A stretch of 64,000 nt of DNA from Bacteroidota bacterium (GTDB lineage Bacteria > Bacteroidota > Bacteroidia > B-17B0 > Aurantibacillaceae), in contig JADBXZ010000044.1 in NCBI GenBank assembly GCA_020403265.1, positions 1-64,000 on the forward strand. Reading direction: 5' to 3'. Positions 32,200-43,135 of the stretch are shown one piece after another (position 1 is the first letter of the stretch; every line of letters starts with the position of its first letter). Position numbers and translations under genes: made by a program. The notes beneath the pieces are model-generated. The model saw only the letters and a program-made list of their open reading frames with translations. It had not been told where the DNA came from and made no database searches.

Positions 32200-32667
32200 C
32201 TAATTACGCATCCGTTTTACCTTTTTTAGTTTGGATTTTAACAACCTGCTTTCCTTCTTAATTAAATCTGCTATACTCGTATTAGATAAAATCATTAAAG
32301 TAGATATCCTAACTTCTGTCATCACTTTTTTTATCCCACAGGTAACTTCATCCTCGCAATCAAGACATTTTTCATAAAAATTCAAACTAGCACAAGGTAA
32401 TAATGCAATTGGACCATCCGTTAGTCTAATAACTTCTGTTAGGTATATGTCTGATGGAGATTTTAATAAATAATAGCCTCCATTAGCGCCCATTTTGCTT
32501 CCAAGTAATCCATTTTTTCTTAACTCTAAAAGAATAGCCTCTAAAAACTTTCTCGGTATCTTCCCAACTTCAGAAATTTCAGAAATCCTCATTTGCTCCT
32601 CTTCTGCATTTGTTTTAGCAAGAATCATTAAAGCTTTAATGGCGTACTTGGTTTTCTTGGATAACAT
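32200..32667 (-). CDS. Rrf2 family regulator with a Cys cluster
   Basis: 155 residues. The winged HTH occupies about 1-80 (KKTKYAIKALMILAK, RISEISEVGKIPRKFLEAIL, GANGGYYLLKSP). C92, C101, C104 and C110 (PCASLNFYEKCLDCEDEVTC) are placed where IscR/NsrR members hold a [2Fe-2S] cluster, though the spacing differs from IscR. It is divergent from the sulfate-assimilation operon, as CymR-type Rrf2 regulators of cysteine metabolism often are. It has a perfect consensus promoter at 32682-32712. A role as Fe-S or sulfur-status repressor of the operon is my inference. Confidence 0.88.
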   Translation of the reverse strand: MLSKKTKYAIKALMILAKTNAEEEQMRISEISEVGKIPRKFLEAILLELRKNGLLGSKMGANGGYYLLKSPSDIYLTEVIRLTDGPIALLPCASLNFYEKCLDCEDEVTCGIKKVMTEVRISTLMILSNTSIADLIKKESRLLKSKLKKVKRMRN

Positions 32668-32712: not shown

Positions 32713-32906
32713 TATAAAAATGCAATCTATTTAACATTAACTACAGAAAATATTCTACAATCAACTTAAAAACATCGAAAATATTTTTTTCTTTTTGATC
32801 TGTTTAAATTTGGCAGATACAGGAATATCAACTCAATTTTGATCACAATTCCTATTAATTCACTAGAATATATAGAATATCTTGGTCTTGGTCTTAATTT
32901 TCAATT

Positions 32907-32914
32907 TATATTTG
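32907..32914 (+). promoter_or_regulatory. -7 element of the sulfate-assimilation operon
   Basis: TATATTTG matches TAnnTTTG. The upstream TTG triplets at 32882 and 32888 are at 22 and 16 bases spacing, so the -33 side is imperfect and may need an activator. Initiation about 32920 would place the first leader peptide 30 bases downstream. Confidence 0.55.
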
Positions 32915-32949
32915 TACTCGAATGGTTTTAGAATATATAAATACTTCAA

Positions 32950-32979
32950 ATGCAATGTCAATGTTCATGTGCTGCATGA
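32950..32979 (+). CDS. Leader peptide 1, MQCQCSCAA (cysteine codons)
   Basis: A 9-codon ORF, ATG CAA TGT CAA TGT TCA TGT GCT GCA TGA, with three TGT codons. It lies about 30 bases after the predicted transcription start and is followed by an antiterminator/terminator pair. Its stop overlaps the start of a second mini-ORF as TGATG. Three Cys in nine residues, placed before a cysteine-biosynthesis operon, is the classic design of an amino-acid attenuator leader. I infer that a ribosome slowed at these codons by scarce Cys-tRNA leaves the antiterminator arm free. Confidence 0.75.
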   Translation: MQCQCSCAA

Positions 32980-32996
32980 TGCAACGATGTTGTTAA
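32979..32996 (+). CDS. Leader peptide 2, MQRCC
   Basis: A 5-codon ORF (ATG CAA CGA TGT TGT TAA) starting within the stop of leader peptide 1 (TGATG overlap). Its last Cys codon and stop lie inside the antiterminator arm 32991-33000. A ribosome that reaches this stop would cover the arm and let the terminator form. Translation was not observed; the call rests on position and content. Confidence 0.6.
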   Translation: MQRCC

Positions 32997-33050
32997 CGGA
33001 AGTTTATTTATAAAATAATAGCCCCTCCGTTAACATGGTGGGGCTTTTTT
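32991..33050 (+). terminator. Cysteine attenuator: antiterminator and intrinsic terminator
   Basis: Arm 1, TGTTAACGGA (32991-33000), is perfectly complementary to arm 2, TCCGTTAACA (33026-33035). The terminator stem is AGCCCC (33020-33025) with GGGGCT (33040-33045), strengthened by an inner CC/GG, and ends in six T (33045-33050). Arm 2 lies in the terminator loop, so the two structures exclude each other. Together with the upstream Cys codons, this gives transcription attenuation that opens the operon when charged Cys-tRNA is low. The first gene starts 24 bases after the T-run. Confidence 0.8.
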
Positions 33051-33073: not shown

Positions 33074-33946
33074 ATGGAAAAAATATATATCAGTGACTCA
33101 GGTCCGGAAATTTCAGCAGCCATCTACGGATTTTGGAGATGGAATACCAAACCAGAAACTTCAATTAAAAAAATTGAAGATATCATCAACTTTAATCTAG
33201 AACTTGGAATAAACACCTTCGATCATAGCGACAATTATGTTGATGGAAAAATAGAAGAATTATTCGGTAAAGCCATTAAAGCTAAATCCTTTAAACGTGA
33301 TGAAATAGTCATTTCAACCAAAGCAGGAATAATAACATCAAAATCAGCTCCATTTAAACGTATAGATTTAAGTCCCAATTATCTCAAAAAAGCAGTTGAT
33401 GCCAGTTTAAAACGATTGAATACGGATTATCTGGATATCTTTTTGCTTGAGGAATTCGACCCACTAATTAATGCGGAAGAAACAACCTCTGCACTTACCG
33501 AATTAGTATTATCAGGGAAAATTAAACACATTGGTGTTTCTAATTTCAATGTCTTTCAGCATCAGTTATTAGCCTCACGATTATCAAAACCGCTTATTAC
33601 CAATCATATTGAACTGAGTGTTTTAAATACAACAGCCATTAATGATGGGAGACTGGATTTTATCAAGGAGCAATACAGCAAACCAATGGCTTGGGCACCT
33701 CTAGCCGGCGGGCGAGTGTTAAACGGAAAGGACAAAAAAGCAATTAAAGTACGTAAAACACTTAAAGAAGTTGGTAATAAATATGATGCTAACGTTGAGC
33801 AAACTGCTGTTGCGTGGCTATATCAGTTGGGTGCATTGCCAATAATTGGTAGTACTGATAAAAACAGAATTAAAAATGCAGCAAGCGCCTACAACATTAA
33901 TTTAACTCCGGAAGACTGGTATTTAATTTATAACTCTACTAAATAA
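33074..33946 (+). CDS. Aldo/keto reductase
   Basis: 290 residues, (beta/alpha)8 fold, NADPH-dependent. Catalytic residues appear as D and Y in TFDHSDNYVDG and K in VISTKAGII; the late GSTDKNRIKNA binds NADP phosphate. It resembles the YdhF branch. It is the first gene of the sulfate-assimilation operon, directly behind the attenuator and 3 bases before cysI. Such a gene has no textbook place in sulfate reduction. Its substrate is unknown; a role in aldehyde or sulfur-compound clean-up is a guess. Confidence 0.9.
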   Translation: MEKIYISDSGPEISAAIYGFWRWNTKPETSIKKIEDIINFNLELGINTFDHSDNYVDGKIEELFGKAIKAKSFKRDEIVISTKAGIITSKSAPFKRIDLSPNYLKKAVDASLKRLNTDYLDIFLLEEFDPLINAEETTSALTELVLSGKIKHIGVSNFNVFQHQLLASRLSKPLITNHIELSVLNTTAINDGRLDFIKEQYSKPMAWAPLAGGRVLNGKDKKAIKVRKTLKEVGNKYDANVEQTAVAWLYQLGALPIIGSTDKNRIKNAASAYNINLTPEDWYLIYNSTK

Positions 33947-33949
33947 ACC

Positions 33950-36073
33950 ATGCAAAGTTTTAGAACAGAATTAGAACTAGTTAATCATTCAACCAAAGCA
34001 CTAGTTGAGAAGGATATTATTGAGTTAGATAAAAAGATTAAGGAATACCATGCTGGTAAGTTACCTGACGAAAAATTCAGAAGCTTACGCCTAGCAAGAG
34101 GTGTTTACGGGCAACGCCAACAAGGTGTACAAATGATACGCATCAAATTGCCGTTCGGTAAGGTGAGTACAAAACAATTGTTGCGCATTGCAAATATCAG
34201 CGATGAATATTCAAATGGCAATTTGCATTTAACAACGCGTCAGGATATTCAGATTCATCATGTGAGTTTGGATCGTACCCCTGAGTTATGGGCCAAATTG
34301 GAACAAGATGATATCACCTTACGTGAAGCTTGTGGTAATACGGTAAGAAATGTAACGGCCTCTGCCGAAGCCGGCATCGATCCCAATGAACCATTTGATG
34401 TGTCGCCATATGCGCATGCCGTGTTCAGTTACTTTTTACGTAAGCCTTTTGGGCAAGAGCTTGGTCGTAAAATAAAGATCGCATTTTCAAATAGTGACAA
34501 AGATACTGCTGTAACTTACATACATGATATTGGTTTTATTCCAAAGATCAATGCGCAAAACGAAAGAGGTTTTAAAGTGTTGATTGGCGGTGGCTTAGGT
34601 GCACAGCCGTTTTTAGCGCAGGTAGCTTATGAATTTTTACAGGAGAACAAACTGATACCATTTATTGAATCAAGTATTCGCGTGTTTGATAGATATGGCG
34701 AACGCGTAAGCAGACATAAAGCGCGTATCAAATACCTGATCAATAAAATTGGCGTTGAAGCATTTTTGAATCTGATCAAGGAAGAAGAAAAAGCACTTTT
34801 AAATAAAACGGTTGAAATTGATTTGGATACAGTAAAGGTTCTTCCTCAATTAAAAAAGACATTACCTTTTGAAAGACCATTAATTGAAAGTGAACAATTT
34901 GTAAAATGGTTAAAGACCAACACCTTCAAGCAAAAACAAAAAGGTTACCATGGTGTATACGTTAAAATTCAATTAGGAAATATTTCGTCATCCAAAACGA
35001 GAGATCTTATTCAAGTGATCGAGCAATTTGCTTTATCATCAGATGTTCGCTTAACGATCAATCAAGGTGTTTTATTGAAATATGTTTCTACCGAAGAATT
35101 ACCTTTTTTATTTGAGGCATTAAATAAATTGAATTTAGCAAGCGTTGGTTTTGATTCAGTAGCAGATATAACAGCATGCCCCGGAACCGACACCTGTAAT
35201 TTGGCAATTTCTAACAGTACAAATATATCGGTAAAGTTAGAAGAGGTTATTTATAATGAGTTTCCTGATCTGATTTATGACCGTGATATTAAAATAAAAA
35301 TTAGTGGCTGTATGAATTCTTGCGGTCAGCATGGCTTGGCACAAATTGGTTTTCATGGCAGTTCATTTAAAGTAGGAACAACTGTTGTGCCTGCATTACA
35401 AGTTTTGTTAGGCGGTGGAACATTAGGAGATGGAAAAGGACGCATTGCTGAGAAAGTGATCAAGGTGGCAAGTAAACGTGCGCCGGATGTACTTCGATCG
35501 CTATTCAATGATTTTGAAAAAAATGCAAGTGACGGTGAGTATTTCAATTCTTATTACGACCGAAAGGGAAAAGACTATTTCTATCAATTACTAAAGCCAA
35601 TTGGTGACAATTCAAATTTAACAGAAGATGAATTTTATGATTGGGGTTCAGAAGAACGCTTTAAGACCGAGATTGGCGTAGGCGAATGTGCTGGGGTGAT
35701 CATAGATCTTGTTCAAACCCTATTTTTTGAGGCGGAAGAGAAATTAGCATGGAGTGCAGAAGCTTTTGATAACAAACAATTTGGCGATAGTATCTATTAT
35801 TCATACGCAGCATTTATTCATGCGGCTAAAGGGTTGTTGTTGAATGGCGGTTTTCATGTGAACACACACCACGCATTGATCAATGATTTTGAAAAGCAGT
35901 TTGTTGAAACGGGGTCATTTGTTTCATTCAAGGAATTAGTATTACAAATAAATAAGAACGAACCCTCTGAGGAATTTGCTGCCAAGTATTTTAATGAAGC
36001 AAAACTATTTTTAAACGAAGTAAAAGCATACAGAGAAAAAATTAGTGCAAACACTTTTGAAACAGTAAAATGA
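33950..36073 (+). CDS. cysI: Sulfite reductase hemoprotein with C-terminal HEPN-like extension
   Basis: 707 residues. It reduces sulfite to sulfide with siroheme and a [4Fe-4S] cluster. The two ferredoxin-like nitrite/sulfite reductase half domains and the siroheme domains are present (VKIQLGNISSS, TTRQDIQIHH). The cluster ligands are C410, C416, C454 and C458 (CPGTDTC and SGCMNSCGQH). Residues about 570-707 form an additional helical domain (SAEAFDNKQFGDSIYYSYAA) resembling HEPN; this extension recurs in Bacteroidota homologues. No CysJ is present. Its stop overlaps the start of the third leader peptide (ATGA). Confidence 0.92.
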   Translation: MQSFRTELELVNHSTKALVEKDIIELDKKIKEYHAGKLPDEKFRSLRLARGVYGQRQQGVQMIRIKLPFGKVSTKQLLRIANISDEYSNGNLHLTTRQDIQIHHVSLDRTPELWAKLEQDDITLREACGNTVRNVTASAEAGIDPNEPFDVSPYAHAVFSYFLRKPFGQELGRKIKIAFSNSDKDTAVTYIHDIGFIPKINAQNERGFKVLIGGGLGAQPFLAQVAYEFLQENKLIPFIESSIRVFDRYGERVSRHKARIKYLINKIGVEAFLNLIKEEEKALLNKTVEIDLDTVKVLPQLKKTLPFERPLIESEQFVKWLKTNTFKQKQKGYHGVYVKIQLGNISSSKTRDLIQVIEQFALSSDVRLTINQGVLLKYVSTEELPFLFEALNKLNLASVGFDSVADITACPGTDTCNLAISNSTNISVKLEEVIYNEFPDLIYDRDIKIKISGCMNSCGQHGLAQIGFHGSSFKVGTTVVPALQVLLGGGTLGDGKGRIAEKVIKVASKRAPDVLRSLFNDFEKNASDGEYFNSYYDRKGKDYFYQLLKPIGDNSNLTEDEFYDWGSEERFKTEIGVGECAGVIIDLVQTLFFEAEEKLAWSAEAFDNKQFGDSIYYSYAAFIHAAKGLLLNGGFHVNTHHALINDFEKQFVETGSFVSFKELVLQINKNEPSEEFAAKYFNEAKLFLNEVKAYREKISANTFETVK

Positions 36074-36221: not shown

Positions 36222-36992
36222 ATGAAAAAAGAAATATATCCAAAATTAACAGTAGTAGGCGCCGGTCCGGGCGACCCAGAATTGATCACCGTTAAAGCTA
36301 TCAATGCTTTAAGCGAGGCCGATGTGATTTTATATGATGCATTGGTAAACAAAGAACTTTTAAAATACGCACCAATAGATGCCTTAAAAATATACGTTGG
36401 TAAGCGTAAGAATAAACATGAGTATACCCAAGAACAAATAAATAATTTGATCGTTGATCTTGCATTTACGCACGGAAGGGTAGTAAGATTAAAGGGCGGT
36501 GATCCGTTTGTATTTGGAAGAGGGAGTGAAGAGATCCAATTTGCGGATGCCTTTAATATTGAAACAGCCATAGTGCCGGGCATAAGTAGCTCTATTGGTG
36601 TGCCGGGGGCAAGCGGCATTCCGGTAACACACCGAGGTATTAGCGAAAGCTTTTGGGTAATAACTGCCACCAAGCAAAATGGCGAATTATCACAAGATAT
36701 ATATGATGCAGCTAAAACAAATGCAACCTTAGTGATCTTGATGGGCTTAAATAAATTGCAGCAGATCACGAGTATTTTTTCGAATGCAGGAAAAGTAAAC
36801 ACACCGGTTGCGGTTATTCAAAACGGAACGCTGGCAACCGAGAATGTTGCTATTGGCACTATTGATACAATAGTTAACGAGGTAAAAGAGCAGAATATAA
36901 AATCACCTGCTATTATTGTCATTGGCGATGTAGTTAAGTTTCATAAATATTATGAATCAGTTGGTTCACATATCAATTATTCGTTGAATTAG
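36222..36992 (+). CDS. cobA: Uroporphyrinogen-III C-methyltransferase
   Basis: 256 residues. It methylates uroporphyrinogen III twice with SAM to precorrin-2 for siroheme, the CysI cofactor. Motifs are VVGAGPGDPELITVKAI at the N-terminus, VRLKGGDPFVFGRGSEE, VPGISSSIGVPGASGIPVTHRG and ATLVILMGLNKL. Single-domain CobA type, not fused to CysG. It is separated from cysI by the third leader peptide and hairpins, and its expression may be controlled there. GATC-rich composition like its neighbours. Confidence 0.93.
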   Translation: MKKEIYPKLTVVGAGPGDPELITVKAINALSEADVILYDALVNKELLKYAPIDALKIYVGKRKNKHEYTQEQINNLIVDLAFTHGRVVRLKGGDPFVFGRGSEEIQFADAFNIETAIVPGISSSIGVPGASGIPVTHRGISESFWVITATKQNGELSQDIYDAAKTNATLVILMGLNKLQQITSIFSNAGKVNTPVAVIQNGTLATENVAIGTIDTIVNEVKEQNIKSPAIIVIGDVVKFHKYYESVGSHINYSLN

Positions 36993-36998
36993 TAAAAA

Positions 36999-37724
36999 GT
37001 GAAGAAACGTTTTTTCATATTATTAATGTTGGCAACACGCATCTCTTTTTCACAAAAAAGTGAGGGTGAAACTTATGCCATGTATTGGGCTGGTTATTAT
37101 AATACAACCCAACTTCATTCAAAATGGAGCATCAACACGGATATCCAACATCGCACAAAGAATGGATATGAGATTCAGGCACAATCACTCATAAGGTCCT
37201 CTCTTGCTTATAAAATAAACGGATCCATTCAGTTAAGTACCGGATTGGCGCATTTCCGACATTTTATAACGAATCAATTGAACAGGGGTGAATGGCGACC
37301 ATGGCAAGAAGTATCTGCAACACAAGAGCATGATAAATTAAAGTTCATCAATAAATTGAGAGTAGAGCAACGTTTTAATCAAACTGTTTATCAAGATGCC
37401 TTAACAAATAATTATGTTTTCAATTGGCGATTCAGATACAGGTTTGAAATAGAGATGGATTTATTTAAACAACGCACACATATGCATTCGTTTAATGTTG
37501 GTAACGAATTCATGATCAATGCTGCCAGATCAATTGGAAATCCATTCGATCAAAACAGATCCTATGTTTCCTATAATTATCAGTTAACTGATAATATCAA
37601 GTTACAATTGCAATACATGTATATCATTCAATACATCGCATCACGAACAAATTACGATCATGTTTCAGTGATCAGATTTAATTTATATCATACAATAAAT
37701 AATGAGCACTCCAGCAACAAATAA
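36999..37724 (+). CDS. DUF2490 outer-membrane protein
   Basis: 241 residues, GTG start. A signal peptide (about 1-18) is followed by the DUF2490 pattern of an all-beta barrel: AMYWAGYYNTTQLHSKWSIN, RSSLAYKINGSIQLSTGLAH, WQEVSATQEHDKLKFINKLRVEQRF. The family has no known function. It sits inside the sulfate-assimilation operon, 6 bases after cobA, and overlaps the next gene by 23 bases. A role in sulfate or siderophore-like uptake is possible but not shown. Confidence 0.8.
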   Translation: MKKRFFILLMLATRISFSQKSEGETYAMYWAGYYNTTQLHSKWSINTDIQHRTKNGYEIQAQSLIRSSLAYKINGSIQLSTGLAHFRHFITNQLNRGEWRPWQEVSATQEHDKLKFINKLRVEQRFNQTVYQDALTNNYVFNWRFRYRFEIEMDLFKQRTHMHSFNVGNEFMINAARSIGNPFDQNRSYVSYNYQLTDNIKLQLQYMYIIQYIASRTNYDHVSVIRFNLYHTINNEHSSNK

Positions 37725-39198
37725 TCTTTTCCCGGTTTTTTTAAAACTTGAGAACCTTAACGTGTTGTTAGTAGGTGGCGGAGTTATTGCGCATGAGAAA
37801 TTATCTGCGATCTTGAATAATAGTCCGCAAACAAAGGTTAAGCTCGTTGCGGAAAGCATCAGTGAAGAGATCAGGCAATTGGCGGCAAAGAATACCTCTG
37901 TTGAATTAAATGAGCGAAAATACATAAAAAGTGACCTTGCTAAAATGAATGTAGCAATTGCGGCAGTGGGTGATAAGAAGTTAAGTGAAGCCATCAGAAA
38001 TGATGCCAAGGCAGCCGGTGTTTTAATCAATGCAGCAGATAAACCTGAACTGTGTGATTTTTACTTGGGTTCTATTGTTCAAAAAGGCGACCTGAAAATT
38101 GCAATATCAACCAATGGTAAATCGCCAACAATGGCCAAGCGTATAAAAGAAACTTTGAATGATGTTTTCCCGGAGGAAACGCAAGAGGTTTTAGAGAATT
38201 TATATACGATCCGCGAGAACTTAAAAGGCAACTTCGACCATAAGGTAAAAACGCTTAATCACATCACACGTGAATTATCGATACCTAAGGAAAAACCAAA
38301 TTTATCAAAACGAATCAGAGTTGCGGTTTTTTATTCCTTGGCTGTAATTACATTAATGATCTTTGGTCATCTCATTTTGTCTTACGTGCCTGTGCAAAAC
38401 ATTTATGATGTATGGTCTGCCATTACAAGTAATGTGGATTCCAATTTTATGCTTTTTGTTGCCGGAGGGTTTATTGCGCAAATGATCGATGGCGCACTTG
38501 GAATGGCATATGGTGTGAGTGTTACTACTTTTTTATTGAGTTTAGGTATCCCTGCTATTTCTCCGGCTGTTGCCAGTGCAAGTATGCATGCTTCAGAAAT
38601 ATTTACAACAGGTTCATCGAGCTTAGTGTATATGAGGTATAAGAACATCAATAAAAAACTCTTTAAAAAATTAGTGTGGCCTGGTATTTTTGGCGCGGTT
38701 TTAGGAGCAGCATCGGTATCTTTTGTGAGCAAGGAAAATATTGCCTGGATAAAACCGTTAGTGGCTGCATATACCCTTATACTGGGTTCATTGATCGTAA
38801 TTCGCGCATTGAATATTCAACTGCGAAAAAAAGAGAAGATCCGGAAAATATTTCCGGTGGCATTGATCGGTGGTTATCTAGATTCTGTTGGCGGCGGTGG
38901 ATGGGGCCCTATAGTTACAACATCTTTAGTTGCTGGAGGCCGACATTTACGTTATTCGATCGGCTCATCTCATTTAGCAAAGTTCTTTGTAGCCTTGATA
39001 AGCACCATCACATTTTTTTTAATAATAGGTTTAAGTCATTGGCAGATCATATTTGGTTTGGTTATTGGTGGGATGATCGCTGCGCCAATTTCCATCTACC
39101 TATCAAACAAGATCCCAACAAAAAAAGGATTGATACTCGTTGGCACTTTAGTAATACTCATTAGTTTAAAAACAATTTTACAAACATTATTAAAATAA
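37702..39198 (+). CDS. Siroheme synthase-type dehydrogenase fused to a TauE/SafE exporter
   Basis: 498 residues. The N-terminal 190 residues form the NAD-binding precorrin-2 dehydrogenase/ferrochelatase domain (VLLVGGGVIAHEKLSAIL, LINAADKPELCDFYLGSIV). Residues about 205-498 are a TauE/SafE (TSUP) membrane domain with about 8-9 helices (GGFIAQMIDGALGMAYGVS, SVGGGGWGPIVTTSLVAGG). It joins cofactor synthesis to sulfite or sulfate movement across the membrane. I have seen this fusion annotated in other Bacteroidota. It overlaps the DUF2490 gene by 23 bases and is followed 1 base later by the flavin reductase. Confidence 0.88.
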   Translation: MSTPATNNLFPVFLKLENLNVLLVGGGVIAHEKLSAILNNSPQTKVKLVAESISEEIRQLAAKNTSVELNERKYIKSDLAKMNVAIAAVGDKKLSEAIRNDAKAAGVLINAADKPELCDFYLGSIVQKGDLKIAISTNGKSPTMAKRIKETLNDVFPEETQEVLENLYTIRENLKGNFDHKVKTLNHITRELSIPKEKPNLSKRIRVAVFYSLAVITLMIFGHLILSYVPVQNIYDVWSAITSNVDSNFMLFVAGGFIAQMIDGALGMAYGVSVTTFLLSLGIPAISPAVASASMHASEIFTTGSSSLVYMRYKNINKKLFKKLVWPGIFGAVLGAASVSFVSKENIAWIKPLVAAYTLILGSLIVIRALNIQLRKKEKIRKIFPVALIGGYLDSVGGGGWGPIVTTSLVAGGRHLRYSIGSSHLAKFFVALISTITFFLIIGLSHWQIIFGLVIGGMIAAPISIYLSNKIPTKKGLILVGTLVILISLKTILQTLLK

Positions 39199-39199
39199 C

Positions 39200-40210
39200 A
39201 TGATCACAACAGATATTGCCATTATTGGCGCAGGTCCCGTAGCATTGTTCGCTATTTTTGAAGCAGGCCTTTTGAAAATGCGTTGTCATTTGATTGATTA
39301 TTTGCCGCAAGCAGGTGGTCAACTTTCAGAGATCTATCCTAAAAAACCTATATATGATATTCCGGGTTACCCAAGTGTATTGGCTCAGGAATTGGTTGAT
39401 AATTTACTAAAGCAGGCCGAACCATTTAAACCAACATTTACGCTTGGTGAAAGAGTTGAGAAACTTGACAAGATCGCTGAACGTGATTTTATTCTCACCA
39501 CTAATATGGGCACAAAAATTAACGCACGTGCAGTTGTTATTGCCGGTGGATTGGGTTGTTTTGAACCGCGCAAACCGGAAGCCGAGAGTCTTGAACTTTT
39601 TGAAAATGGGAAAGGTATTTCATACATGGTGCTCGATCCGGAAGTTTATCGTAACAAAAAAATTGTATTAGCGGGTGGCGGTGATAGTGCATTGGATTGG
39701 ACCATTTTTTTGGCAAACATTGCAAAGGAAGTAACATTGGTACACCGCAGCGAATCGTTCAGAGGAGCGCCTGATAGCGTTAATAAAGTAATGAATTTAG
39801 CAGAACAAGGAAAGATAAGATTGTTCCTTAACTCTAACCTTACTCACGTTGAAGGAAATTCTGTTTTGGAAAAAGTAGGTGTGATCAATATCAAAACGCA
39901 AGAAAAGCAGATCATTGATGCTGATAATCTGATCCCGTTGTTTGGATTAAGTCCGAAGTTGGGCCCTATTGAAAACTGGGGATTGGAAATTGATAAGAAT
40001 GCGATTGTTGTGAATACCGAAGATTACAGCACCAATATTGATGGGGTATATGCAATTGGCGATATCAATACCTACACCAATAAACTAAAATTAATACTAT
40101 GTGGTTTTCACGAAGCTGCATTAATGAGTCATAGTGTTTATAAATACATTAATCCAGGTGTAAAGTATACCATGAAGTATACAACAGTAAACGGCATTAA
40201 TGAGTTTTAA
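39200..40210 (+). CDS. Ferredoxin-NADP reductase-like flavoprotein
   Basis: 336 residues. It is a thioredoxin-reductase-fold FAD/NAD(P) enzyme with IIGAGPVALFAI at the N-terminus, VLAGGGDSALDW for the second nucleotide, and GVYAIGDINTYTNKLKLIL for FAD. The CxxC of thioredoxin reductase is absent, which points to the ferredoxin-NADP reductase type. No CysJ is nearby, so it probably supplies electrons to CysI through ferredoxin. This is inferred from context. Tightly packed with its neighbours. Confidence 0.85.
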   Translation: MITTDIAIIGAGPVALFAIFEAGLLKMRCHLIDYLPQAGGQLSEIYPKKPIYDIPGYPSVLAQELVDNLLKQAEPFKPTFTLGERVEKLDKIAERDFILTTNMGTKINARAVVIAGGLGCFEPRKPEAESLELFENGKGISYMVLDPEVYRNKKIVLAGGGDSALDWTIFLANIAKEVTLVHRSESFRGAPDSVNKVMNLAEQGKIRLFLNSNLTHVEGNSVLEKVGVINIKTQEKQIIDADNLIPLFGLSPKLGPIENWGLEIDKNAIVVNTEDYSTNIDGVYAIGDINTYTNKLKLILCGFHEAALMSHSVYKYINPGVKYTMKYTTVNGINEF

Positions 40211-40232
40211 AACACATCAATAAGAATTGAAA

Positions 40233-40934
40233 ATGAAGTTAGTAGATGATTTAAATAGGTTAGTCAGAAATAAATCTGCAATTGAAATTCTTGAATTGGT
40301 ATCAAGTATGAAAAACGAAAATGCGGTATTTTCAACTAGTTTCGGCTATGAAGATCAGGTGATTACACATATGATTTTCAGCCAACAACTACCAATAGCC
40401 ATATTTACGTTAGATACCGGCAGATTATTTCCAGAGACCTATTCTGTTTTTAACAGTACAATAGATCGGTATAAAAAAACTATTAAGGTGTTTTATCCCA
40501 ACACCTCATTGGTAGAGAATTTACTGACAACTAAAGGACCTTTTAGTTTTTATGAATCAATTAATAACAGAAAGGAATGTTGTTTTATAAGAAAAGTAGA
40601 GCCGCTGAAGCGTGCTTTAAAAGGTTACACCATCTGGATTACAGGCATTCGTGCCGATCAGTCAGGCAACAGAAGTGACATGCCAATGGTAGAATGGGAT
40701 GAATCTAACGACATTATAAAAATTCATCCAATCTTAAACTGGGATTTAAAAATGGTGAAGGACTATATTTTTGAGAATAATATTCCATATAATCCATTGC
40801 ATGATAAAGGCTTTGTTAGTATTGGATGTCAGCCTTGCACAAGGGCCATTCAGCTAGGAGAAGATTTCAGGGCCGGAAGATGGTGGTGGGAAGATACTAC
40901 CAAAAAAGAATGTGGACTGCATTTAAGAAATTAA
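40233..40934 (+). CDS. cysH: Adenylyl-sulfate (APS) reductase, [4Fe-4S] type
   Basis: 233 residues from the ATG at 40233; a TTG at 40227 is less likely. It reduces APS to sulfite using thioredoxin. C116-C117 and C199/C202 (ECCFIRK and GCQPCTRA) form the CC-CxxC cluster typical of APS, not PAPS, reductases. The catalytic Cys is C227 in ECGLH near the end. The use of APS fits the absence of an APS kinase (cysC) domain in the operon. GATC content falls back to the genome's low level in this gene. Confidence 0.92.
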   Translation: MKLVDDLNRLVRNKSAIEILELVSSMKNENAVFSTSFGYEDQVITHMIFSQQLPIAIFTLDTGRLFPETYSVFNSTIDRYKKTIKVFYPNTSLVENLLTTKGPFSFYESINNRKECCFIRKVEPLKRALKGYTIWITGIRADQSGNRSDMPMVEWDESNDIIKIHPILNWDLKMVKDYIFENNIPYNPLHDKGFVSIGCQPCTRAIQLGEDFRAGRWWWEDTTKKECGLHLRN

Positions 40935-40953
40935 AATAAATAAAATTAAGGTT

Positions 40954-41859
40954 ATGCGTAAAATAGATTATTTAGATCAGTTAGAAAATGAAGCTATCCA
41001 CATCCTAAGGGAAGTTGCAGGTCAGTTTGAAAAACCCGCATTATTATTTAGCGGTGGTAAGGATAGCATTTGTTTGGTGCATTTGGCTTTAAAAGCATTT
41101 CGGCCAGGTAAATTTCCTTTCCCGTTGGTTCATGTTGATACCGGACATAATTTTCCTGAGGCATTAAAATACCGTGATGATTTGGCTGCTCGCATCAATG
41201 AGAAACTTATAGTTAGAAAAGTGGAAGACACTATTAAAGCAAAAAAATTACAAGACGCAAAAGGTAAATTTCCAAGTAGAAATGCATTACAAACTTATAC
41301 CTTGCTGGATGTAATCGAAGAATTCGAATTTGATGCCTGCCTTGGAGGAGCCCGAAGAGATGAAGAGAAAGCAAGAGCCAAAGAACGTATCTTCTCTGTT
41401 AGAGATGAATTTGGTCAATGGGATCCTAAAAAACAACGGCCCGAACTTTGGAACATTTATAATGGAAAAATAAATAAAGGAGAGAATGTACGCGTATTCC
41501 CAATCAGCAACTGGACAGAATTGGATGTTTGGAATTATATTAAACGTGAAAAAATTGACTTACCTAATATTTACTTTACACATGAACGAGATGTTGTTGT
41601 CACAGATAACGGTCAACTAATGGCAAACTCTGAATTTCTTCAATTAGACCAAGGCGATGTGATAATAAGAAAAAAAGTAAGATATAGAACGGTTGGAGAC
41701 ATGACTTGCACCGCTGCAATAGAAAGTGAAGCATATTACATAGATGACATAATTCAAGAAATTAAAGAGGCAAAAATAAGTGAACGTGGCGCAACACGCA
41801 TGGACGACAAGATAAGCGAAGCAGCCATGGAAGACAGAAAAAAAGGTGGATACTTCTGA
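40954..41859 (+). CDS. cysD: Sulfate adenylyltransferase subunit 2
   Basis: 301 residues. ATP pyrophosphatase fold with the P-loop SGGKDSICLVHLA and the family's LLFSGGKDS. Later blocks LGGARRDEEKARAKERIFS and FPISNWTELDVWNYI are CysD signatures. It activates sulfate to APS with CysN. It follows cysH by 19 bases and precedes cysN by 31. Confidence 0.95.
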   Translation: MRKIDYLDQLENEAIHILREVAGQFEKPALLFSGGKDSICLVHLALKAFRPGKFPFPLVHVDTGHNFPEALKYRDDLAARINEKLIVRKVEDTIKAKKLQDAKGKFPSRNALQTYTLLDVIEEFEFDACLGGARRDEEKARAKERIFSVRDEFGQWDPKKQRPELWNIYNGKINKGENVRVFPISNWTELDVWNYIKREKIDLPNIYFTHERDVVVTDNGQLMANSEFLQLDQGDVIIRKKVRYRTVGDMTCTAAIESEAYYIDDIIQEIKEAKISERGATRMDDKISEAAMEDRKKGGYF

Positions 41860-41890
41860 TTAAATAAATAAATAAATTATAATTATACAT

Positions 41891-43135
41891 ATGGACTTAT
41901 TACGATTTTTTACGGCTGGAAATGTTGATGATGGAAAAAGTACGTTGATTGGAAGATTACTTTATGACAGTAACTCTATATCAACTGACATTATTGAAAC
42001 GTTAACCAAACAAAGTAAAACAACCGGCATTAATACAGATATTGATTTAGCATTGTTAACAGATGGCTTAAGAGCCGAACGTGAACAAGGCATAACAATA
42101 GATGTAGCCTATAAATACTTTACAACTGAAAAACGCAAATTTATAATTGCAGATACACCTGGGCATATTCAATACACCAGAAATATGTTTACAGGTGCAT
42201 CGAATGCTGATTTAGCGATAGTTTTAGTTGATTCCAGAAATGGGATAACCGAACAAACAAAAAGACATAGTATAATTGCCTCAATCTTAGGAATTCCGAA
42301 CCTAGTTGTATGTATAAATAAAATGGATCTTGTTAATTTTTCGGAAGCTGTTTATAATTCAATTATTGAATCCTTTGAAGAATTTGCTAAACCACTTAAT
42401 TTAAATGAGATCTCGTTTATTCCTGTAAGCGCTTTAGCTGGAGACAATGTAGTAACAAAATCTCAACATACTGATTGGTATCAAGGAAAAACACTTTTGG
42501 ATTATCTTGAGACAGTGCAAATTGTAAACAGTGCAAAAAAAGTAGATTCACGTTTTCAAGTTCAATACGTTATCCGTCCACAAACAGAAGATTTACACGA
42601 TTACAGAGGATTTGCCGGAAAAGTCATTACTGGTCATTACCACAAAGGACAGCGTGTTACTGTGTTACCATCCGGAATAGAGACAACTATTCTTAAAATT
42701 GAACAAAACTTAAAAGAGTTGACGGAAGCTAAAACTGATGATCCGGTTATACTTCATTTATCAGATGACATTGATGTTAGCAGAGGTAATACGATTGTAC
42801 CTATAGAATCAAAACCGAGAACAGAAAAGGAGATAATCGCTACAATCTGCTGGATGGATAATGCTGCATTTATACCCGGACAAAAATTAATTTTACAGCA
42901 AAACAGTTTTAGAACTAAAGCCGTTCTAAAAGACGTGTTAAATAAAATTGATATTCATTCGTATAAAGCGATTGAAAGTGATGGAAACATTAAATTAAAT
43001 GACATTTGCCAAGTAAATATTAAAACAGCTGAACCAGTGAGTTTTGATTCTTATTCAGAAAACAGAAGTACCGGTTCCTTTATTTTAATTAATGAAAACA
43101 CCAACAACACAATTGCCGCTGGTACAATTCATTAA
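41891..43135 (+). CDS. cysN: Sulfate adenylyltransferase subunit 1
   Basis: 414 residues, GTPase of the EF-Tu type. G1 is GNVDDGKSTLIGRLLYDS, G3 is ADTPGHIQYTRNM and G4 is NKMDLVN. It powers APS synthesis by GTP hydrolysis together with CysD. There is no fused APS kinase (CysC), consistent with an APS-dependent CysH. Last gene of the operon; no terminator hairpin is evident in the 17 bases before the convergent GNAT gene. Confidence 0.95.
   Translation: MDLLRFFTAGNVDDGKSTLIGRLLYDSNSISTDIIETLTKQSKTTGINTDIDLALLTDGLRAEREQGITIDVAYKYFTTEKRKFIIADTPGHIQYTRNMFTGASNADLAIVLVDSRNGITEQTKRHSIIASILGIPNLVVCINKMDLVNFSEAVYNSIIESFEEFAKPLNLNEISFIPVSALAGDNVVTKSQHTDWYQGKTLLDYLETVQIVNSAKKVDSRFQVQYVIRPQTEDLHDYRGFAGKVITGHYHKGQRVTVLPSGIETTILKIEQNLKELTEAKTDDPVILHLSDDIDVSRGNTIVPIESKPRTEKEIIATICWMDNAAFIPGQKLILQQNSFRTKAVLKDVLNKIDIHSYKAIESDGNIKLNDICQVNIKTAEPVSFDSYSENRSTGSFILINENTNNTIAAGTIH

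Follow-up and report, generated by a model that had tools for sequence, protein, structure and literature searches.

A very probable cysteine-sensing attenuator upstream of a Bacteroidota sulfate-assimilation operon, with serial double forms in other Bacteroidia

Attenuation by leader peptides, as described for the trp, his and ilv operons (e.g. PMC1183508), relies on codons for the pathway product, on mutually exclusive antiterminator and terminator helices, and on ribosome position as the switch. Cysteine attenuators are already known elsewhere, namely from mycobacterial cys operons and from Rhodobacterales cysS. The latter, uORFC-8-2, is a Cys leader with a terminator upstream of the cysteinyl-tRNA synthetase gene (PMC8632094). 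In Actinobacteria, Cys leader peptides have been predicted without a conserved terminator (PMC1262725), and mycobacterial cys operons are preceded by cysteine-responsive, leaderless poly-Cys short ORFs (Canestrari et al. 2020, as cited in PMC9031893 and PMC13236596). Within the Bacteroidota, the main text of PMC9723704 notes leader-peptide attenuation generally before amino-acid operons of Flavobacterium psychrophilum and names no cysteine leader. Open-licence papers yielded neither a described cysteine attenuator from Bacteroidota nor double leader-peptide attenuators that share one amino acid, an absence that counts as weak evidence.

The window analysed here, meaning the whole stretch of 64,000 nucleotides, carries an element of this kind upstream of a sulfate-assimilation operon (Table 1), whose output is the conversion of sulfate to sulfide, plus siroheme. 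We consider this element to be, very probably, a ribosome-mediated attenuator of transcription with charged tRNA-Cys as its signal. A cysteine attenuator at this place had been proposed by the sequence-only reading of the locus, and that core proposal held, with leader, terminator and competing antiterminator all conserved in relatives. The element shares with uORFC-8-2 two tandem Cys codons (17 and 18 here, usually 14 and 15 there), an intrinsic terminator and predicted ribosome-mediated transcription attenuation; uORFC-8-2 differs in its phylum, in the gene it precedes (cysS, as opposed to AKR-cysI-cobA-cysG/tauE-cysHDN), in a first stem that contains the Cys codons, and in that tandem copies are not described there. 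Like the mycobacterial poly-Cys ORFs, it has runs of Cys codons 5' of cysteine-synthesis genes. The leaderless mycobacterial ORFs begin at the RNA 5' end, and the leader here is predicted to begin close to it (3 nt in the window and 3-8 nt in relatives, from predicted starts). Those ORFs lack a conserved terminator and are reported to act on translation, whereas the element here has a terminator and antiterminator pair. Compared with trp, his and ilv, the codons are for Cys, almost no 5' UTR is predicted, and arm 1 of the antiterminator contains the stop codon; the F. psychrophilum leaders share its phylum and general mechanism.

Table 1. Features of the attenuator locus in the window, and leader peptides of relatives
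Feature	Position	Strand	Details
Rrf2-family regulator, divergent	32200..32667	-	PF02082, TIGR00738; superfamily of CymR and IscR
Predicted Bacteroidota sigma-A promoter	32882..32914	+	TAnnTTTG consensus match
Conserved leader peptide ORF	32922..32996	+	24 aa, MVLEYINTSNAMSMFMCCMMQRCC, then stop; frame, length and Cys pair similar in relatives
Off-frame ORF MQCQCSCAA, then stop	32950..32979	+	first ORF of the sequence-only reading; outside the device; without counterpart in relatives
Putative sensor codons TGC TGC (Cys-Cys)	32970..32975	+	relatives keep Cys-Cys at this site; arm 1 follows after 15 nt
Distal TGT TGT (Cys-Cys)	32988..32993	+	overlaps arm 1; probably retained for pairing, not sensing
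Antiterminator arm 1	32991..33000	+	TGTTAACGGA; includes leader stop codon TAA
Small A+T hairpin	33004..33018	+	TTATTT-ATA-AAATAA; between the arms; compensatory changes in relatives
Intrinsic terminator	33020..33050	+	AGCCCC-U-CCGU/AUGG-U-GGGGCU, then U6
Antiterminator arm 2	33026..33035	+	TCCGTTAACA; inside the terminator
Aldo/keto reductase (AKR), first operon gene	33074..33946	+	Pfam PF00248
Nitrite/sulfite reductase (cysI-like)	33950..36073	+	PF01077 and PF03460
Remaining operon	36222..43135	+	uroporphyrinogen-III methyltransferase, DUF2490 protein, siroheme synthase N-domain/TauE fusion, thioredoxin-reductase-like flavoprotein, CysH, CysD, CysN
Leader of G012			MKKYSNYKTNFASNMMCCWMMQRCC, then stop; single ORF corresponding to 32922-32996
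Leader of G037			MKKYSNHKTKFSNNMMCCWMMQRCC, then stop; single ORF corresponding to 32922-32996
Leader of G035			MKTIILNSQNYSKQMMCCWMRCC, then stop; single ORF corresponding to 32922-32996
Leader of G112			MKANTSNSIFFSHQIAMCCCMRRCC, then stop; single ORF corresponding to 32922-32996
Leader of G110			MKNTVLNINFTNKHMMCCWMLRCC, then stop; single ORF corresponding to 32922-32996
Leader of G123			MRKVKTYREKFLKGMMSCCMCRCC, then stop; single ORF corresponding to 32922-32996
Leader of G031			MKTKFYIALKNHSSMMCCCKMQRVL, then stop; single ORF corresponding to 32922-32996
Leader of G044			MMNNYKNNSMCCCMQRLY, then stop; single ORF corresponding to 32922-32996

Direct reading of the sequence confirms the two Cys-rich mini-ORFs reported earlier, MQCQCSCAA (32950-32979; ATG CAA TGT CAA TGT TCA TGT GCT GCA TGA) and MQRCC (32979-32996; ATG CAA CGA TGT TGT TAA), which overlap as TGATG and carry five TGT codons between them. 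Their interpretation as a tandem of coupled leaders did not withstand comparison with relatives. A third and longer frame at 32922-32996, unlisted at the time, holds 4 Cys in 24 codons and shares its TAA with MQRCC, which is the tail of this conserved leader. Every close relative has a single uninterrupted leader in the frame of 32922-32996 (variants include MMCCWMMQRCC, MMCCWMRCC and MCCCMRRCC, each followed by a stop codon), and a counterpart of MQCQCSCAA, which lies in another frame, is absent from them. Mini-ORFs of at most 40 aa with at least two Cys that precede a terminator are confined to the two frames here across both strands of the whole 64 kb.

We then considered where ribosomes would enter. 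Bacteroidota promoters have the consensus TAnnTTTG at -12 to -5 (PMC9723704), and the match at this locus, with a -7 box TATATTTG at 32907-32914 and a TTG at 32882-32884 or 32888-32890, predicts a transcription start at ~32919, 3 nt before the first in-frame ATG (32922). A TAnnTTTG-type box lies shortly 5' of the leader ATG in 20/20 family members, many relatives having the close variant TTAnTTTG, and the ATG is 3-8 nt from the predicted start in all 20. With the ATG this close to the predicted start, ribosomes are expected to initiate in the conserved frame and to translate through 32950. These observations weigh on the alternative that MQCQCSCAA and then MQRCC are translated through the TGATG overlap, the first ORF acting as the sensor and the second bringing the ribosome onto arm 1. 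Although both ORFs exist with that overlap, and their spacing to arm 1 would also fit, the MQCQCSCAA frame occurs in no relative, the single leader there runs in the other frame with MQRCC as its tail, and the family-wide position of the conserved ATG points to the same frame; we regard coupled translation as extremely unlikely. Within the single conserved leader, 32970-32975 is the sole Cys pair able to be a productive stall site, because a ribosome waiting at the distal pair (32988-32993) would itself mask arm 1. The distal pair is replaced in two relatives, whose leaders end in RLY (G044) and RVL (G031), and its conservation in the remaining relatives is better explained by base pairing.

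Both competing helices named by the sequence-only reading were found in place: a perfect 10-base pairing joins TGTTAACGGA at 32991-33000 to TCCGTTAACA at 33026-33035, and in the AGCCCC/GGGGCT terminator 33020-33025 pairs with 33040-33045, followed by six T at 33045-33050. Closer inspection of the terminator stem revealed that it extends inward past a T-T mismatch (CCGT/ATGG, 33027-33030 with 33035-33038), a part that had been overlooked. The gene next upstream is divergent, so this terminator cannot mark the 3' end of any other transcription unit that is known. Folding of the nascent antiterminator segment (z = -4.2) and of the whole leader (z = -3.9) was matched in stability by 0/200 shuffles in each case. 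Among the 11 closest elements, 10 of them distinct, 93% of antiterminator cells are paired and two pairs have changed on both sides (5 cells), three distinct relatives having C-G in place of a T-A pair; 1/500 shuffles reached the covariation score of 0.227, with an imperfect control for relatedness, and sliding the antiterminator partner lowered pairing to 24-50%. The A+T hairpin between the arms has three pairs with compensatory changes. The terminator stem is 99% paired in the 10 distinct relatives and mostly invariant, and six terminator pairs never vary and therefore give no covariation support. In G035 and G044 antiterminator pairs are broken, with only a weak version left in G044. Conservation in relatives, the check proposed alongside the earlier reading, was found for the Cys leader and both stems, with covariation in the antiterminator, and was not found for MQCQCSCAA.

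By geometry alone, a ribosome waiting at the Cys pair, 15 nt from arm 1 in the window, would leave that arm free, whereas one finishing the leader would cover it, the stop codon being part of arm 1. When a ribosome footprint was modelled at Cys-Cys, the antiterminator reached a probability of 0.99 in nascent window RNA, as opposed to 0.35 in naked RNA; a ribosome at the stop sets this probability to zero by construction of the model. In the modelled equilibrium, a stalled ribosome does not keep full-length RNA from favouring the terminator (0.85), and the switch must therefore be kinetic, decided during transcription as in other attenuators. Collectively, the locus displays what is expected of a leader-peptide attenuator: a Cys-rich short ORF, a terminator before the first gene, a mutually exclusive antiterminator, and an arm 1 suitably placed.

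From this anatomy, conservation, covarying pairing and geometry we infer how the promoter would be used, the leader translated and transcription terminated, and how the locus would respond to cysteine. Transcription would begin at ~32919 and a ribosome would load almost at the 5' end, at the ATG at 32922. Under ample Cys-tRNA, the ribosome would pass the Cys pair at 32970-32975 and arrive at the stop at 32994-32996, where it would cover arm 1 and leave arm 2 free, allowing the terminator at 33020-33050 to fold and transcription to end before the operon. Under scarce Cys-tRNA, it would wait at 32970-32975, ~15 nt short of arm 1; the free arm 1 would then pair with arm 2 and so prevent the left side of the terminator from closing, letting RNA polymerase continue into AKR-cysI-cobA-cysG/tauE-cysHDN. 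The earlier reading named the antiterminator and terminator arms as we find them; its two overlapping, coupled mini-ORFs are not supported.

Two other forms of control were weighed against this switch. Translational or Rho control, in which the intrinsic terminator is uninvolved, has been proposed for mycobacterial poly-Cys leaders, and the known Cys leaders of Mycobacterium indeed lack a conserved terminator (PMC1262725), with PMC9031893 describing their action as translational; here, however, a strong U6 terminator is conserved and the competing helix covaries, which makes this mode very unlikely. A structured leader preceding sulfur genes could also suggest a ligand-binding riboswitch or a T-box in place of a ribosome sensor, sulfur-metabolite riboswitches being common. 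Yet all Rfam matches here stay below the gathering score, no conserved aptamer-like part lies upstream of the leader codons, and the conserved sequence is coding and encodes the pathway's product, leaving this explanation hardly credible.

The ribosome-mediated attenuator probably acts beneath a second layer of control, the Rrf2-family regulator, whose gene, or one like it, adjoins the leader in many relatives. A palindrome, TCCTAT-N7-ATAGGA, precedes the -7 box by ~50-70 nt in L133, L136, L139, L140, L145, L150, L151 and L003, close to an Rrf2-family gene in many of these loci, and a degenerate version lies near 32850-32875 of the window. The palindrome is likely the operator of the Rrf2-family regulator. 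A divergent Rrf2 gene, together with a palindrome 5' of the promoter in many relatives, suggests that initiation is probably controlled too. Within the operon itself, one protein (37702-39195) combines a siroheme-synthase N-terminal domain with a TauE/SafE sulfite exporter domain, and a DUF2490 gene (36999-37721) is included. The AKR gene (33074-33946) is tied to the cysI operon in the window and in relatives, in some of which the gene 5' of AKR is what we take to be peroxiredoxin-like. The sulfite reductase frame contains one in-frame TGA in G041 (L160) and G258 (C10).

A single Cys-Cys leader and terminator stand 5' of AKR-cysI or cysI in most operon-bearing relatives. A covariance model matched 10 family genomes with E-values no higher than 2e-13, all upstream of AKR-cysI, as well as G031 (7e-9), where the element is directly upstream of cysI; seven sequences among the matches had built the model. 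The window's own genome gave one match. Weak matches of ~32-36 bits (L117-L120 and L127-L129; genus and family) have no Cys leader beside them and resemble ordinary terminators or chance matches, and sub-threshold Rfam matches in the window, such as ncr1575 (32.9 bits vs 60) and Phe_leader (17.7 vs 55), were taken as chance. With the AKR protein as anchor in named genomes we obtained 80 loci, with the leader present only in the nearest relatives; the broad distribution emerged when this anchor was replaced by cysI. In this class-wide survey, upstream DNA was read from the sulfite reductase gene and all doubled residues were tested alike. Of 119 regions across Bacteroidia, 63 had a terminator preceded by a Cys-Cys mini-ORF in the sense direction and 1 in antisense, while Met-Met, from the Met codons beside the Cys runs, gave 36 vs 2, Asn-Asn 24 vs 3, and no other doubled residue exceeded 36. 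The survey comprises 79 distinct leaders from 66 genomes and 17 family-level groups (median 25 aa, median 4 Cys), in which the median distance from the Cys pair to the start of arm 1 is 15 nt; in 55/79 the stretch following that pair is complementary to the terminator at p<0.05 against mononucleotide shuffles.

The Met-Met counts raise the question of whether the leader responds to Cys and Met, not to Cys alone. Met makes up 32% of the residues flanking Cys runs in the 79 leaders, which are thus rich in both sulfur amino acids, MM mini-ORFs before terminators show the sense bias given above, and the window leader contains MFMCCMM (32961-32981). Cys-Cys is nonetheless the more constant part, the operon makes sulfide for cysteine, some leaders are long Cys runs with little adjacent Met, and the ATG codons could be spare start codons; joint sensing is a tentative reading that we consider rather unlikely.

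The leader is not uniformly present. None was seen within up to ~2.5 kb in the gene-bearing groups f12, f15, f54 and f68, and the orthologous operons of G002 and G041 have no visible leader. In the upstream stretches read, no Cys leader was found for metX-hom(-prx)-first operons (G006, G019) or for the AKR loci of G007 and G026, G026 having one at a separate cysI locus. In Dyadobacter, Emticicia, Niastella and others, cysI was not found beside AKR in the examined stretch. One Bacteroidota-type AKR gene (L073) sits on a contig titled as an Actinomyces viscosus MAG, a label that is probably wrong.

Tandem cysteine leaders do exist in the phylum, in another form and place than first proposed for this locus; the window carries the single-copy form. 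A leader-terminator-leader-terminator arrangement precedes the operon in 14 genomes from seven family-level groups (f10, f16, f19, f21, f25, f38, f44; loci L159, L165, L167, L168, L172, L176, L182 (=L035), L183, L185, L186, L201, L209, L210, L214). The TAnnTTTG box is present 5' of leader 1 in 14/14, whereas 5' of leader 2 a loose match, itself a T-run, occurs in only 1/14; with a promoter box before leader 1 only, both units should act in series on one transcript. In Salmonella, the tandem attenuators of mgtCBR use different signals and structures. They resemble the serial doubles in having two short ORFs in one leader region of one operon (PMC3641672), but the Bacteroidota pairs are two complete attenuators in series for the same amino acid. 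The surprising part is this combination of phylum-wide spread and serial doubles. Taken together, we think it likely that control of sulfite reductase operons by cysteine attenuation is old and phylum-wide in Bacteroidota, and that several lineages have two complete attenuators in series behind one promoter, imposing two independent Cys-tRNA checks.

If this is true, the two readthrough probabilities would multiply, making the response steeper than that of a single attenuator, and the 14 genomes with serial doubles form a natural test of whether stacked checks for the same amino acid sharpen a response. The locus also corrects a general trap, in that the frame of an A+T-rich leader that looks most Cys-rich by eye need not be the conserved one. 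It further suggests that attenuation can work from leader ORFs preceded by hardly any 5' UTR, and it offers a testable cysteine sensor of sulfate assimilation for the Bacteroidota, where few amino-acid controls are mapped.
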